From Dethiobacter alkaliphilus AHT 1 (GTDB lineage: Bacteria > Bacillota > Dethiobacteria > Dethiobacterales > Dethiobacteraceae), in NCBI RefSeq assembly GCF_000174415.1, contig NZ_ACJM01000003.1, positions 1-64,000 of the forward strand: a stretch of 64,000 bases of DNA, given 5' to 3'. A program made the position numbers and the translations under genes. Position 1 is the first letter of the stretch. Each line of letters begins with the position of its first letter. Positions 22,852-30,405 of this stretch are shown here, piece by piece. The notes beneath the pieces are model-generated. The model searched no databases, was not told the DNA's origin, and saw nothing but the letters and a program-made list of their open reading frames with translations.

Positions 22852-24336
22852 TTAAAATTGCCGCTGCACCAATTCTTTTAATAAATCACAGTCCAGATGC
22901 TCCCGCACAGCCTGGGCCAGCAGTTGGTACGACTGTTCCCGTTTCTGCCGGGCCGAGAGAGTATCGCCTTCCTGAGGTTTTAAACCATGGGCCTTGCGCA
23001 GGCGGTTTAAAAAACCATGGCGAAACGTTGCGGCGTCAAAGAGGCCGTGCAGGTAGGTGCCAAACACTCTTTTGTCGGCGCTTACGGCTCCGTCCTCGTA
23101 GCTTTGTCCCTTTTCTGAGGTAAGGCGGGCAAAAGGCTCTGTTTCACCACGGGTGGTTTGTCCCATATGGATTTCATACCCACATAGCTCCTCACCGTGC
23201 TCAATGGTTTCTCCTTTTACCCGGACCGTGGTCTTTTGCGGCAAAAATTCTGTTTCCACCGGCAAAAGGCCAAGGCCTTCCTCGCTGCCGCCGGTGCCGT
23301 CTGCCGATTGCAAATCCACAACCCGGCGGCCAAGCATCTGGTAGCCGCCGCAAATGCCCACCAGAGACGAGCCGCCGTTCACTGCTGCTGCCACCGCTTT
23401 TGCCAGGCCGCAGCTTTTTAGCCACCGCAAATCAGCCAGCGTATTTTTACTTCCCGGCAAAATAACCAGGTGAGGACTTCCCAACTGCTGCGGGGTTTGC
23501 ACATAACGGAGACGCACTCCGTTTTCTGTTGCCAGGACGTGGTAATCGGTAAAATTAGCAATGCGCGGCAGCTGAATCACCGCCACATCCAGCTCTCCCC
23601 CGGGCGGTTGTATTCCTCCCAAAGCCAGGGAGTCTTCCGCCGGCAGCGACAAACGGTCCAGATAGGGAATTACCCCTATTACCGGTTTGTGTATCCGCTC
23701 TGTTAACATATCCAGCCCCGGCTGCAACCGCTCCTTAATACCGCGGAAGCGGTTAACAATCACGCCATCCACCCGGGCTCGCTCACTTTCATTTAAAAGC
23801 GCCAGCGTTCCCGCCACATAGGCAAACATGCCGCCCCGGTCAATATCGCTGATTAACAGCACCGGGGCATCCGCCGCTTCCGCCAGGCGCATATTGACAA
23901 TATCATGCTCCCGCAGGTTAACCTCCGCCGGGCTTCCCGCCCCTTCCATCACCACCACGTCAAACTTCCTGCGCAGGGTATTCAGGGCACTGAGAACCTC
24001 AGGAAACAAAACTTTTTTATGTTCCTGATAGTGGGCCGCCGACATATTGCCGGTGGAGATGCCGTTTACCACCACCTGAGAGTGGGTGTCACTCACCGGC
24101 TTTAACAGTACCGGATTCATGGCCACCTCCGGTTCCGCTCCTGCCGCTTCGGCCTGCATGACCTGGGCCCAGCCGATTTCACCGCCGTCTACCGCCATGG
24201 CATTAAGGGCCATATTCTGCGCTTTAAACGGCGCCACACTAAATCCTTCCTGGGCAAAATAGCGGCACAGCGCCGCACAAAGAATGCTTTTCCCGGCATC
24301 GGAGGACGTTCCCTGCACCATCAGCACCGCTGTCAT
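22852..24336 (-). CDS. cobQ: Cobyric acid synthase, copy 1
   Basis: Amidates the b, d, e and g side chains of adenosylcobyrinate a,c-diamide with glutamine and ATP. The 494-residue protein has the P-loop-like VQGTSSDAGKSILCAALCR, FKAQNMALNA, the EGAGSPAEVNLREHDIVNM strand, ISDIDRGGMFA, and a C-terminal amidotransferase with the nucleophile in GICGGYQMLG and a late TYLHGLFD histidine. It starts within the stop of a second complete cobQ (four-base overlap). Both copies look catalytically intact. Confidence 0.94.
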   Translation of the reverse strand: MTAVLMVQGTSSDAGKSILCAALCRYFAQEGFSVAPFKAQNMALNAMAVDGGEIGWAQVMQAEAAGAEPEVAMNPVLLKPVSDTHSQVVVNGISTGNMSAAHYQEHKKVLFPEVLSALNTLRRKFDVVVMEGAGSPAEVNLREHDIVNMRLAEAADAPVLLISDIDRGGMFAYVAGTLALLNESERARVDGVIVNRFRGIKERLQPGLDMLTERIHKPVIGVIPYLDRLSLPAEDSLALGGIQPPGGELDVAVIQLPRIANFTDYHVLATENGVRLRYVQTPQQLGSPHLVILPGSKNTLADLRWLKSCGLAKAVAAAVNGGSSLVGICGGYQMLGRRVVDLQSADGTGGSEEGLGLLPVETEFLPQKTTVRVKGETIEHGEELCGYEIHMGQTTRGETEPFARLTSEKGQSYEDGAVSADKRVFGTYLHGLFDAATFRHGFLNRLRKAHGLKPQEGDTLSARQKREQSYQLLAQAVREHLDCDLLKELVQRQF

Positions 24337-25868
24337 GACAGATCCTCCTTTTTTTTGCCGGGTAACTCCAGCAGCTGATAAATTGCGTCCATATCCAAAG
24401 CGCGGCGCACCTCTGCCGCCAGCTTATCAAATGAGCTTTCCCGGTGGTCCAAAGCTTCGGTGCCCAGCTCCTGCCAACCGCGGCTCTGCCGCAGCCGGTT
24501 TAGCCAGGCCCGGCGGAAACCGGGCCGGTCAAAAACTCCATGCAGGTAAGTACCCCAGATGCGGCCGCAAGCCGATACCGCACCGTCATTGCCGCCCTCT
24601 CCACTCAAAGTAAAAGCTGCAGAGCAGCCGGGCTCACGCTCAGATTGCCCCATATGGATTTCGTATCCGGACACCTTTTCTCCTAAAGCAAATGACAGCC
24701 GGGATTCTCCCTCTGCCCGCACCACTTTTTTCTCCGGATAAAAGCGGGTAGTTACCGCCAACAGCCCCAGCCCCGTTGCTTCTGCGGCGCCGCTGCCCGA
24801 TTCGCCGCCGTGGGGGTCCCATAATTTCTCCCCCAGCATTTGGTAGCCGCCGCAAATACCCACCACGGGAATTTTTTGCTCACAGGCGGCCAAAATGGCG
24901 CTGTCCAGGCCGTGTTGGCGAAGAAACTGCAGATCCCGCATACTGTTTTTTGTGCCCGGTAAAATGACGGCATCGGCGCCGGAGAGCTTTTCCGGTTCAT
25001 CCACATAGATAAGTTCCACATCCTCTTCTGCCGCCAGGGCGTCAAAGTCTGTGAAGTTACTGATATGGGGCAGGCGCACCACACAGATTTGCAGCTTACC
25101 CTGGCTTTCGCCGCAATAGGCACTCCGCTCCAGGGCCACGCCGTCTTCTTCGGCCAGATTGGTTTGGATATGGGGCACCACTCCCAGCACCGGGCGCCCG
25201 GTACGCTCCTCCACCACTTTCAGCCCCGGCTCCAGCACCGCCTTGTCGCCGCGAAATTTATTAAAAATAAAACCGGCAATGCGCTGCTGATCTTCCTGCG
25301 GCAAAAGGAGCATGGTACCCACCGCTGCCGCCAGAGCGCCACCCCGGTCGATATCGTTAACCAACAGCACCGGAGCTTCCGCCAGTTTTGCTGCTTTCAT
25401 ATTGGCCACATCCTGGTCGGCCAGATTAATCTCCGCCGGACTGCCGGCGCCTTCCAAGACGATAATGTCATATTCATCCCGCAGTGTGTCCAGTGACCTG
25501 GCTATCACCTGCAGGCTAAAACGTATGTAATCTTCCTGGGAGCGCGCCGCATAGCTCACATCGCCATGGGGCCTGCCCCGCACAATGATTTGGGCCTGGC
25601 CCTGCCCCTTGGGCTTGACCAGAATAGGGTTCATATCCACGGTGGCTTCAATCCCCGCCGCTTCCGCCTGTTCCCCTTGGGCTCGGCCAATTTCCCCGCC
25701 GTCGCAGGTTACATAGGAGTTTAAGGCCATATTCCAGCTTTTAAAAGGGGCCACACGGTAACCGTCCTGGGCAAAAATACGGCACAAGGCGGTGGCCAGA
25801 GCGCTTTTGCCCACATGAGATGCGCTGCCCTGAATCATAATGGTTTTTGCTTTGGCTTTCCTTTGCAT
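24333..25868 (-). CDS. cobQ: Cobyric acid synthase, copy 2
   Basis: A second full-length member of the same family, 511 residues from ATG 25868. It has IMIQGSASHVGKSALATALCR, FKSWNMALNSYVT, EGAGSPAEINLADQDVANM, NDIDRGGALAA, GICGGYQMLG and TYLHGVFD. It is the first gene of the cob operon. Differences from copy 1 include GSASHVGKS for GTSSDAGKS and FKSWNMALN for FKAQNMALN in the N-terminal synthetase region. The open frame extends to 25922, but the region between holds a palindromic operator. Which copy makes cobyric acid, or whether they divide the four amidations or act on different corrinoids, cannot be told here. Confidence 0.92.
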   Translation of the reverse strand: MQRKAKAKTIMIQGSASHVGKSALATALCRIFAQDGYRVAPFKSWNMALNSYVTCDGGEIGRAQGEQAEAAGIEATVDMNPILVKPKGQGQAQIIVRGRPHGDVSYAARSQEDYIRFSLQVIARSLDTLRDEYDIIVLEGAGSPAEINLADQDVANMKAAKLAEAPVLLVNDIDRGGALAAAVGTMLLLPQEDQQRIAGFIFNKFRGDKAVLEPGLKVVEERTGRPVLGVVPHIQTNLAEEDGVALERSAYCGESQGKLQICVVRLPHISNFTDFDALAAEEDVELIYVDEPEKLSGADAVILPGTKNSMRDLQFLRQHGLDSAILAACEQKIPVVGICGGYQMLGEKLWDPHGGESGSGAAEATGLGLLAVTTRFYPEKKVVRAEGESRLSFALGEKVSGYEIHMGQSEREPGCSAAFTLSGEGGNDGAVSACGRIWGTYLHGVFDRPGFRRAWLNRLRQSRGWQELGTEALDHRESSFDKLAAEVRRALDMDAIYQLLELPGKKKEDLS

Positions 25869-25885
25869 AGCTGCACCATCCTGTC

Positions 25886-25914
25886 TTGACAAAACAGATA
25901 AATAAAGGTACCAT
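25886..25914 (+). promoter_or_regulatory. Promoter of the ferredoxin gene
   Basis: TTGACA (25886-25891) and TACCAT (25909-25914) are 17 bases apart on the plus strand, giving a transcription start near 25921, exactly at the edge of the CsoR-type palindrome. The -35 is perfect, the -10 matches four of six positions. Confidence 0.5.
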
Positions 25915-25920
25915 TTATTC

Positions 25921-25937
25921 ATACCCCCAAGGGGTAT
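25921..25937. promoter_or_regulatory. CsoR/RcnR-type operator-like palindrome
   Basis: ATACCCC-CAA-GGGGTAT is a perfect 7+7 palindrome. The pattern matches operators of the CsoR family (copper CsoR, sulfur CstR and related metal sensors). It lies between the divergent cobQ copy 2 and ferredoxin genes, overlapping the predicted start of the ferredoxin transcript. No csoR-family gene is in the window, so the regulator is inferred only. Confidence 0.5.
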
Positions 25938-25963
25938 AGTATATTGTCCGGAGGTTATAACAA

Positions 25964-26152
25964 ATGAAGACTTATGCTATTAATCAACAACTCTGCGATC
26001 GTTCTCCAGGCTGCAAGGTTAAAAAAGAGTGCCCCAGCAACGCCATTGTGCAAATGGACGGCGACTATTATATCGATATGCTCGCCTGTCGGCGCTGCGG
26101 CTTGTGTGTAAAGACGTGCCCGCATGGCGCGGTGGGAGAAAGCGCTTCTTAA
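25964..26152 (+). CDS. Small 4Fe-4S ferredoxin-like protein
   Basis: A 62-residue protein with seven cysteines. The second cluster motif is classical (C42, C45, C48, C52-Pro); the first is unusual, C11-X5-C17-X5-C23-Pro. The protein can therefore hold one standard [4Fe-4S] cluster and perhaps a second of altered geometry. CGGAGG eight bases before ATG 25964 supports it. It is divergent from the cob operon and precedes the TrkA_C gene by 51 bases. An electron-donor role to corrin-ring reduction or cobalt reduction is possible but only suggested by position. Confidence 0.85.
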   Translation: MKTYAINQQLCDRSPGCKVKKECPSNAIVQMDGDYYIDMLACRRCGLCVKTCPHGAVGESAS

Positions 26153-26203
26153 GAGACTTTAGAGCTTTGTTTTTTGGGTAAGATAACAGCGGAGGTGTAC
26201 ACA

Positions 26204-26881
26204 TTGTTAGGTGAACTGCCGCTGTTATTTTTAATTTTTATCCTGCTTTTTCTGATTATTGAAGTTTCCACCGTCATGCTGGTAATAACCGGCCTGGACC
26301 GGGAAACCGCCCGCTTTCAGGCCATCTCCCTCATTACCTCCTCCGGCTATACCACCTCGGAGGCGGAATTGGTGGTCCGTCATCCCGTCAGGCGCAAAAT
26401 CGCCATTTTCCTCATGATTTCCGGCACCCTGGCCCTGGCCTTTATTATTTCTATTCTGGTACGCATTTTAGGCAAAGGCCTCTCCGGCCCGGAAGACGTC
26501 TTTGTGCTGGTTACTTTTCTGGCCGCAGTATATTTGCTGTCCCGAAACAGCCGGGTAGTTAACTTCCTGGACCATCACCTGGAAAAACGGTTGGAAAATC
26601 AGCCTTATCTGCAAAAACGAACAGTGGAAGAACTGCTGCGAATCGACGAGCATTTCAGCGTGGCCGAAGTTCATCTTTCCAATCCTGACGGGCCCTGGGT
26701 TGACAAATCCCTGGGAGAAACCAAACTGCGGGACCGCAATGTTATTGTGCTGTCTATCCGCCGGGTGGACGGCACCATGATCCGCGCGCCGCGGGGTCGG
26801 GATTTCCTGCAGTATGGCGACATCCTGCTGGTTTACGGCCGCGCCCGCTATATCAGTGAACTAATCGAAACAGTCACCTGA
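26204..26881 (+). CDS. Membrane protein with C-terminal TrkA_C (RCK_C) domain
   Basis: A 225-residue protein beginning at TTG 26204, eight bases after GGAGG; an in-frame TTG at 26174 lacks a site. Three membrane segments (about 4-26, 62-86 and 92-112) are followed by a soluble region and an RCK_C domain (about 148-222) ending GDILLVYGRARYISEL. RCK_C domains bind small ligands such as cyclic di-AMP or ions in potassium systems. The substrate is unknown. Its 3' end overlaps the convergent ABC ATPase gene by 21 bases. Confidence 0.8.
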   Translation: MLGELPLLFLIFILLFLIIEVSTVMLVITGLDRETARFQAISLITSSGYTTSEAELVVRHPVRRKIAIFLMISGTLALAFIISILVRILGKGLSGPEDVFVLVTFLAAVYLLSRNSRVVNFLDHHLEKRLENQPYLQKRTVEELLRIDEHFSVAEVHLSNPDGPWVDKSLGETKLRDRNVIVLSIRRVDGTMIRAPRGRDFLQYGDILLVYGRARYISELIETVT

Positions 26882-28135
26882 AGGGAAACATTCTTTTAGT
26901 TTGCGGTACAGAGCGGCTTTTTCCGGGACTGTTACCGCCCCCTGTTCTTTGAGGGACTGCAGCAGCCGCAGGCCTTCACCGCCGGTAAAATCACGGTCTG
27001 CCTGGGCTTTTTCCTCCAGGATATATACAGGAGTTTTCATCTCCAAAGCGGCTTGTGCCGCCTGCAAATTAAGCAAATTACCGGCCCCGATGGGGGCTTC
27101 CGCCAGGACAACAGCCCTGGCTTCTTTTATTTGCGAAAGATTCTCGGCGTGCCTTTCTTGGGAAATGTGGGAAAAGGGAACTTCCGCCACCACCGGTAAA
27201 TCCAGAGCCCGGGCCGCTTCCCAGTCGGTATCGCCCACATTCAAGACGCCTACAGACACAGTAAAACCGGCTTCGGTGAGATCACGCATCAGCTCCCCAC
27301 CGCAGCCGCCGCCGGCAATTAAATGGACGCGCCGTTTATCTTTTTGGGCCCGGTGGTGCACATGGGGCAAAAGTGAGATGGTGGGCGTCCCCAAAACGGG
27401 ATGGGGCGTGACCAACACCCGGGTGCGGTACACATCCTGAATATTCTCCGCGGTAAGCACCTGAGCCGGAGGACCGCAGGCGGCGATTTTTCCCTGGCTC
27501 ACCAGCACCAGTTCGTTGCAGTAATAGGCCGCCAGATTCAATTCATGCAGTACCGCCACCACCGTCAGCCCCTCCACCGTGGAAAGCCGTTTCACCAAAT
27601 CCAGAATTTCCTGCTGGTAACCGATATCCAAATGAGACGTGGGCTCATCCAATAAGAGGACTTTGGGCTGCTGGGCCAAAGCCCGGGCAATCATCACCCT
27701 CTGGCGCTCTCCGCCGCTTAGTTCGGTAACGGAGCGCTCCCGCAAATGCTGGCACCCGGTCATCTCCAGCACCTGGCGCACAATCTCATAATCTTTTAAA
27801 GATTCACTTTGAAAGCGGCCCAGATACGGGGCCCTGCCCATCATCACCACATCTTCCACAGAAAACAAATAGCCCGCGGTGGTATCCTGTGCCACCACGG
27901 CCATGGTTTTAGCCAGCTCATTTTGGGCAAATCCGGCCAACTCCCGGCCCGAAAGCAGCACGCTGCCGCCTGAGGGGGCCAATATACGGGACAAGACTTT
28001 TAAAAGGGTGGTTTTGCCGCTGCCGTTGGGACCGATAATGCCCACAAAAGAACCCTCCGGCACCTCAAAGCTGGTTCCCTGTAATATTTTGTTTTCTCCG
28101 TAGGCAAAATGCAAATCGTCAATGGTTATTCTCAT
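26861..28135 (-). CDS. btuD: ABC transporter ATPase (BtuD/FecE type) with extra C-terminal domain
   Basis: Residues 1 to about 255 are a FecE/BtuD ATPase: Walker A GPNGSGKTT, signature LSGGERQRV, Walker B VLLLDEP and an H-loop VLHELN. Residues about 265-424 are an added domain opening HLIAGGGCGGELM with a Rossmann-like pattern (VGVLNVGDTDW, VVAEVPF, ARAVVLAEAPIG, PVYILEE). Usual BtuD proteins are about 250 residues, so this is a true fusion. Its cargo is predicted to be corrinoid because the riboswitch-led operon contains btuF and btuC. The extra domain could be a ligand sensor; this is inference. Confidence 0.9.
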   Translation of the reverse strand: MRITIDDLHFAYGENKILQGTSFEVPEGSFVGIIGPNGSGKTTLLKVLSRILAPSGGSVLLSGRELAGFAQNELAKTMAVVAQDTTAGYLFSVEDVVMMGRAPYLGRFQSESLKDYEIVRQVLEMTGCQHLRERSVTELSGGERQRVMIARALAQQPKVLLLDEPTSHLDIGYQQEILDLVKRLSTVEGLTVVAVLHELNLAAYYCNELVLVSQGKIAACGPPAQVLTAENIQDVYRTRVLVTPHPVLGTPTISLLPHVHHRAQKDKRRVHLIAGGGCGGELMRDLTEAGFTVSVGVLNVGDTDWEAARALDLPVVAEVPFSHISQERHAENLSQIKEARAVVLAEAPIGAGNLLNLQAAQAALEMKTPVYILEEKAQADRDFTGGEGLRLLQSLKEQGAVTVPEKAALYRKLKECFPSGDCFD

Positions 28136-30189: not shown

Positions 30190-30405
30190 ATGTACAAATA
30201 AACGTACGTTTCCCTTGACCCGAGGGCACGATACGGCTGGCACAGGCAGGTTTCCTGGCTTCCGATCATCGCCTGGCGGCGCCTTCCCCCAAAAGGGTGG
30301 CAATTGCCGCAGACTCACGGTTACAGTGGCGGGACCGCTCAGGCCTTTAACCTGATTCCCTTTTACCCCTAAACAGGGCACCTGTTCCATCGTCCGGTAT
30401 GGATT
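30190..30405 (-). ncRNA. Cobalamin (B12) riboswitch
   Basis: On the minus strand the leader contains the conserved B12 elements in order: GGTGCCCTG, the GGGAATCAGGTTAAAGGCC core, GAGCGGTCCCGCCACTGTAA, and the B12 box AGCCAGGAAACCTGCC at 30245-30260. It precedes the btuF-btuC-btuD operon and ends in a terminator, so cobalamin should shut off uptake. The biosynthetic operon at 25.9 kb has no such leader. Confidence 0.95.

Follow-up and report, generated by a model that had tools for sequence, protein, structure and literature searches.

The perfect palindrome ATACCCC-CAA-GGGGTAT between a cobalamin biosynthesis operon and a divergent ferredoxin gene of Dethiobacter alkaliphilus AHT 1 looks like a genuine CsoR-family repressor operator that forms part of the ferredoxin promoter. 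The ferredoxin is most likely the gene under its control, within a small set of iron-sulfur and sulfur-stress genes, and the cobalamin operon is most probably uninvolved. Established by computation are the operator with its position and conservation, its set of target genes, and the presence of CsoR-family repressor genes in the genome. As the binding protein we propose one of two CsoR-family proteins of this genome, hereafter class A. It would repress the ferredoxin gene set and be released by reactive sulfur, a reading to which we give somewhat better than even chances.

A predicted CsoR-type operator in a ferredoxin promoter

Within the window (the whole 64,000-nucleotide stretch analysed), positions 25921-25937 read ATACCCCCAAGGGGTAT with 0 mismatches to ATACCCC-CAA-GGGGTAT, so that both the sequence and the coordinates given in the initial annotation are exact; the second-best match within the window has 2 mismatches. 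Characterised CsoR type-2 operators consist of TAC-X9-GTA flanking two C/G tracts and overlap a promoter (PMC3902906). The window site fits this description perfectly: TAC (25922-25924) and GTA (25934-25936) form an inverted repeat with 9-bp spacing, and the core CCCC-CAA-GGGG supplies two C/G tracts with three intervening bases where 2-4 are required. Furthermore, the palindrome begins 6 bases past the -10 hexamer of a sigma-70-type promoter (Table 1), whose position places the predicted ferredoxin transcription start at about 25920, the left edge of the palindrome. The initial annotation had read the palindrome as a CsoR-type operator at the ferredoxin start site; the operator reading is upheld, and the location holds for the predicted start. 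With the type-2 operators of Streptomyces lividans, Bacillus subtilis, Listeria and Staphylococcus aureus, the site shares, besides TAC-X9-GTA and the C/G tracts, a 3-base spacer, AT-rich flanks and placement in a promoter. However, those sites front csoR, copZ and copA (PMC3902906), whereas the window site precedes a ferredoxin gene, and the other two sites of this genome precede iron-sulfur/selenoprotein genes.

The palindrome was also listed as terminator-like in a pattern scan. We nevertheless see next to no chance that its role is that of an attenuator or terminator hairpin in RNA instead of a DNA operator: no T run follows the stem (the tail reads AGTATATTGT), the predicted start sits at the palindrome edge, and shortly after the -10 box the bases ATACCC...GGGTAT themselves are conserved, beyond their pairing.

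Table 1. Positions of the features discussed, in the window unless a contig (C5, C22) is given.
Feature	Position	Strand	Basis or remark
cobQ copy 2, encoding cobyric acid synthase; opens the divergent cobalamin operon	24333..25868	-	NCBIfam NF001989, 601 bits
Sigma-70-type ferredoxin promoter	25886..25914	+	TTGACA 25886-25891, 17 nt, TACCAT 25909-25914
Predicted CsoR-family type-2 operator, ATACCCC-CAA-GGGGTAT	25921..25937	.	overlaps the predicted transcription start
Ferredoxin ribosome-binding site, GGAGGT	25950..25955	+	direct reading of the sequence
62-aa ferredoxin, CDxSPxC type	25964..26152	+	Pfam Fer4 8.8e-9, family alignments, AlphaFold model
Membrane protein with TrkA-C domain	26174..26881	+	Pfam PF02080 4.1e-10, gene order in relatives
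Cobalamin riboswitch upstream of btuFCD	30228..30400	-	Rfam RF00174, 101.9 bits; only one in the window
Perfect site 2	C5:158981		before HesB/IscA-like gene, G000:C5 from about 159031 (L217)
Perfect site 3	C22:9325		before 493-aa NapH-like polyferredoxin-flavin/NAD reductase protein (L020:6366-7847)

The ferredoxin, read from the ATG at 25964, is unusual in its cysteines. Canonical 2[4Fe-4S] ferredoxins have two CxxCxxCxxxCP motifs; here the second motif is normal, but the first is C-x5-C-x5-C(P), and the protein therefore totals seven cysteines (positions 11, 17, 23, 42, 45, 48 and 52). All seven are invariant in an alignment of 21 sequences, as is Asp12, while Ser14 is nearly so. Its AlphaFold model (pLDDT 89.7) has the strand/helix order of ferredoxins. 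The TrkA-C gene that follows is probably co-transcribed with it; the same arrangement is found in the relatives G002, G005 and G011 and is absent from G004, G017 and G019.

Conservation of the operator and its relation to the cobalamin genes

The full pattern ATACCCC-N3-GGGGTAT occurs once in the 3.1 Mb genome, at the window site, and 9 times in 8 of 20 family genomes, compared with 0 for a reversed control pattern. The shorter ATACCC-N4/5-GGGTAT, counted as perfect over its 12 bases, is found 3 times in the D. alkaliphilus genome (control 0) and at 32 sites in the family (control 9). The search for further copies that the initial annotation had suggested thus yields two more perfect 12-base sites in this genome. 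A degenerate search (TACCCC-N3-GGGGTA with 2 mismatches; 116 sites versus 90 for the control) was too loose and was dropped.

An ortholog search with the 62-aa ferredoxin across the sixty nearest genomes recovered orthologs in 8 (own genome included), all from the same family. The operator lies in the same place at 12/12 bases in 7 of these 8 genomes and at 11/12 in G013, and the upstream TTGACA-17-TAnnnT is kept in G002, G004, G005, G011 (as TTGACT), G013, G017 and G019. Within the family, the ferredoxin always adjoins cobalt/B12 genes, namely cobQ, cbiX, cbiMNQO or btuFCD. We surveyed the phylum by a protein profile search over an even draw of 398 genomes, and there the ferredoxins outside the family with the same C-D-x-S-P-x-C motif have neighbours other than B12 genes. 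From ferredoxins picked by protein similarity alone, 34 upstream regions were matched to ATACCC-N4/5-GGGTAT: 13 contain it at 12/12 bases and 8 at 11/12 (21/34 in total), from at least ten families. By comparison, one of 1700 shuffled sequences reached 11 matches and none reached 12, where the shuffles preserve base composition only and some of the genomes are related; the 34 downstream regions gave 0 at 11-12 (best 10). Since the match recurs upstream of the ferredoxin across the phylum among other neighbours, the operator goes with the ferredoxin. The comparison indicates that the association with B12 genes reflects a local habit of gene arrangement and that the operator moves with the ferredoxin.

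This argues against the proposal of the initial annotation that a metal- or sulfur-sensing repressor could link corrin synthesis with the status of metals or sulfur. That proposal built on the lack of a B12 riboswitch, which is correct directly before cobQ; upstream on the same strand, however, a cobalamin riboswitch precedes btuFCD. Because this riboswitch-led operon is transcribed in the direction of cobQ, read-through from btuFCD into cobQ is possible, and the cob operon may be read from the btu operon upstream. Our search of 25800-27300 found no - strand promoter for cobQ, and there is little room for one, since at most 20 nt separate the cobQ start codon from the -35 box of the ferredoxin. 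Nor did the search find a strong - strand terminator between btuD and cobQ; the only terminator-like match in 25800-27300 is weak.

The repressor could still act on the cobalamin operon, either at a cobQ promoter that escaped the search or by stopping transcription that comes through from btu, and so couple it to cobalt, copper or sulfur. The palindrome and the cobQ start codon are 52 nt apart, the ferredoxin adjoins cobalt/B12 genes throughout the family, and no strong terminator was found in the path of read-through. We regard such control as improbable: across the phylum the operator tracks the ferredoxin rather than B12 genes, the - strand promoter search was negative, and the cobalt-uptake operons cbiMNQO that neighbour the ferredoxin in relatives (G005, G013 and the second G017 copy) have their own B12 riboswitch.

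Two further observations concern this neighbourhood. Two full-length cobyric acid synthase genes are adjacent on the - strand (22852-24336 and 24333-25868), both with strong matches to one curated family, and the pair is kept in relatives. In addition, the BtuD-like ATPase (26861-28135, - strand) has an extra C-terminal part of about 170 residues, and at its stop end the gene shares about 20 bp with the TrkA-C gene on the other strand.

Target genes and candidate repressor

In the D. alkaliphilus genome, all three perfect 12-base sites lie in promoters of iron-sulfur genes, and none precedes a sulfur-transferase gene. The HesB/IscA-like gene behind site 2 has an in-frame TGA, at GFG-U-GGPK, as it does in five relatives, and probably encodes a selenoprotein. 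In the family, 29 of the 32 perfect sites, with the surroundings of each judged by eye, fall in promoters, and the genes behind them are of seven types: NapH-like (10), window-type ferredoxin (7), HesB-like selenoprotein (6), CoA-disulfide reductase-rhodanese (3; G001, G003 and G005) and one each of copA, an FmdB-like gene and another short ferredoxin. Two of the sites (G017 C80 and C81) are identical in sequence, so that a single site may have entered the count two times. The CoA-disulfide reductase-rhodanese target also includes TusA in G003 and G005, and DsrE as well in G003. The remaining three sites were dismissed: G003 C34 lies within a gene, G005 C51 has no clear promoter, and G019 C99 falls inside the selD coding sequence and was judged a coincidence. 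This selD (G019:C99, L353) also seems to contain a TGA in frame (GSGG-U-ASKIPPG). Our searches of open-licence papers brought up no report of a CsoR-controlled ferredoxin or HesB-like selenoprotein.

The initial annotation had staked its operator on the presence of a CsoR-family gene, and the genome has two (1.7e-26 and 3.8e-22). One encodes class A (G000:C6:34643-34882, before mgtE), a member of the family by PF02583 (3.9e-27, 94.9 bits, cut-off 22.8) with Ser34, Cys35, His60 and Cys64, that is, a complete Cys-His-Cys ligand set. The other, class B, is of the copper type: a Tyr adjoins its first Cys, copZ is the next gene, and long C/G-tract operators lie at its own gene, with a similar tract at copA in this genome. 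In copper-sensing CsoR the Tyr beside the first Cys is a second-shell residue; class A has Ser34 in its place. None of the class A genes checked in the family has an operator of its own. In the family loci read (L001, L166, L167, L169, L170 and L171), class A csoR lies before mgtE and, wherever checked, downstream of 6S RNA. In a tree of 106 CsoR proteins the two classes separate, and the placement of class A relative to characterised CsoRs is unsupported.

Class A is present in 12 of the 14 family genomes with perfect sites, and six of these twelve lack class B (G003, G004, G005, G011, G012 and G017; G011 has a third, divergent CsoR besides class A). G007 and G010 have neither class A nor a perfect site. 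Class A is thus the simplest candidate, and from co-occurrence we consider it the likeliest repressor at the site. Against it count its lack of an operator of its own and the genomes G008, G009, G015 and G016, which have class A and no perfect site. RcnR-like cobalt sensing by class A, raised by its mgtE and B12 neighbours, was given little weight: RcnR has a His ligand where class A has Cys64, and a further His ligand at position 3, where class A has none.

A repressor of another family recognising the palindrome seems very improbable to us. It would account for G013 and G019, which bear sites and in which no CsoR gene was detected; mgtE and 6S RNA are also not found in these two drafts, and since all three are missing together the csoR locus probably falls in an assembly gap. 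Moreover, all 18 sampled extra-family genomes with a window-type ferredoxin or a close match carry a CsoR gene. A scan of bacterial genomes for the palindrome listed at least 118 loci, neither a complete nor a random sample, and provides independent support for the CsoR reading: among the 118 matches listed a CsoR-family gene is present in 43, and in 35 the palindrome lies at most 200 nt upstream of a CsoR domain, compared with about 0.4 genes expected by chance on the assumption of 1.5 genes per 3.5 Mb.

Reactive sulfur or copper as the possible signal

We propose that class A binds the palindrome across the transcription start and would thereby block the ferredoxin gene, probably along with the TrkA-C gene that follows. 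Elsewhere in the genome, it would likewise repress the genes for the HesB-like selenoprotein and the NapH-flavin reductase protein. Reactive sulfur (persulfide or polysulfide) would modify the Cys35/Cys64 pair, as in CstR, upon which the modified repressor would leave the operator and the gene set would be expressed.

CstR has no His at the metal-ligand position. Class A, with two conserved Cys (C35 and C64), is of the CstR type in this pair and differs from it in keeping H60. The reactive Cys pair is shared with CstR of Staphylococcus aureus and Enterococcus faecalis and with YrkD of Bacillus licheniformis, and the targets in relatives, which include CoA-disulfide/persulfide reductase, rhodanese, TusA and DsrE, add to the likeness (PMC5480029, PMC9405070 and PMC9918477). 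In particular, the CoA-disulfide reductase targets resemble coaP, which is under CstR in Enterococcus faecalis (PMC9405070), and in two of the three genomes with such targets, G003 and G005, class A is the only CsoR class. One operon (G240, L326:4104-5482) joins a window-type ferredoxin to a CstR-like gene, TusA and DsrE; in G288 thioredoxin reductase and thioredoxin lie behind such a site; and a CsoR gene is paired with a thioredoxin gene at L078. On the other hand, class A keeps the copper-sensor His and its gene is not beside its targets, unlike CstR, and the available excerpts of PMC5480029, PMC9405070 and PMC9918477 do not name ferredoxin, NapH-like or HesB-like genes as CstR targets. A CsoR-family repressor of sulfur genes that, like class A, is encoded away from its targets is TTHA1953 of Thermus thermophilus, although its operator, TACNNTACNNNNGTANNGTA, has no C/G tracts, unlike the window site (PMC10318464).

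Alternatively, class A or class B might bind Cu(I) at Cys-His-Cys and release the same genes, which would then be expressed when copper damages iron-sulfur clusters. C35-H60-C64 in class A is a copper fingerprint, and class A shares PF02583 and Cys-His-Cys with the copper CsoRs of Mycobacterium tuberculosis and Geobacillus (PDB 2hh7 and 4m1p; class A aligns best with 4m1p, 1.1e-18). Copper genes also occur near the operator: the copA of G005 carries it in a genome where class A is the sole CsoR, in G011 the HesB-like gene under a site is followed about 0.9 kb downstream by a copA gene, and CopA-like genes are downstream of the palindrome in about half of the loci (59/118) among the matches listed. 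We nevertheless rate copper as the signal unlikely, though the strongest of the alternatives. Class A differs from 2hh7 and 4m1p in having Ser34 for Tyr, no operator of its own and mostly non-copper targets, among them CoA-disulfide reductase, rhodanese, TusA and DsrE; class B does have the Tyr; and in D. alkaliphilus csoR-B/copZ and copA sit behind a different, C/G-tract operator. We favour reactive sulfur (persulfide) over copper as the probable signal, at odds of about two to one.

In place of a guess at B12 control, these results offer a defined, testable regulon, with three sites in the D. alkaliphilus genome and, across the family, 29 sites located in promoters, and the case shows that a neighbouring operon can mislead on the function of an operator. 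They also attach a control element, and with it a clue to function, to a widespread small ferredoxin with an unusual Cys pattern and to the HesB-like selenoproteins, whose function is poorly known. More tentatively, we suggest a phylum-wide regulon of the CsoR/CstR type, with the 7-Cys ferredoxin as its signature and a Cys-His-Cys repressor turned sulfur sensor. If this is true, ferredoxin, NapH-flavin reductase, HesB-like protein and CoA-disulfide reductase-rhodanese would form a phylum-wide regulon of anaerobic Bacillota-like bacteria that handles reactive sulfur and also protects iron-sulfur clusters.
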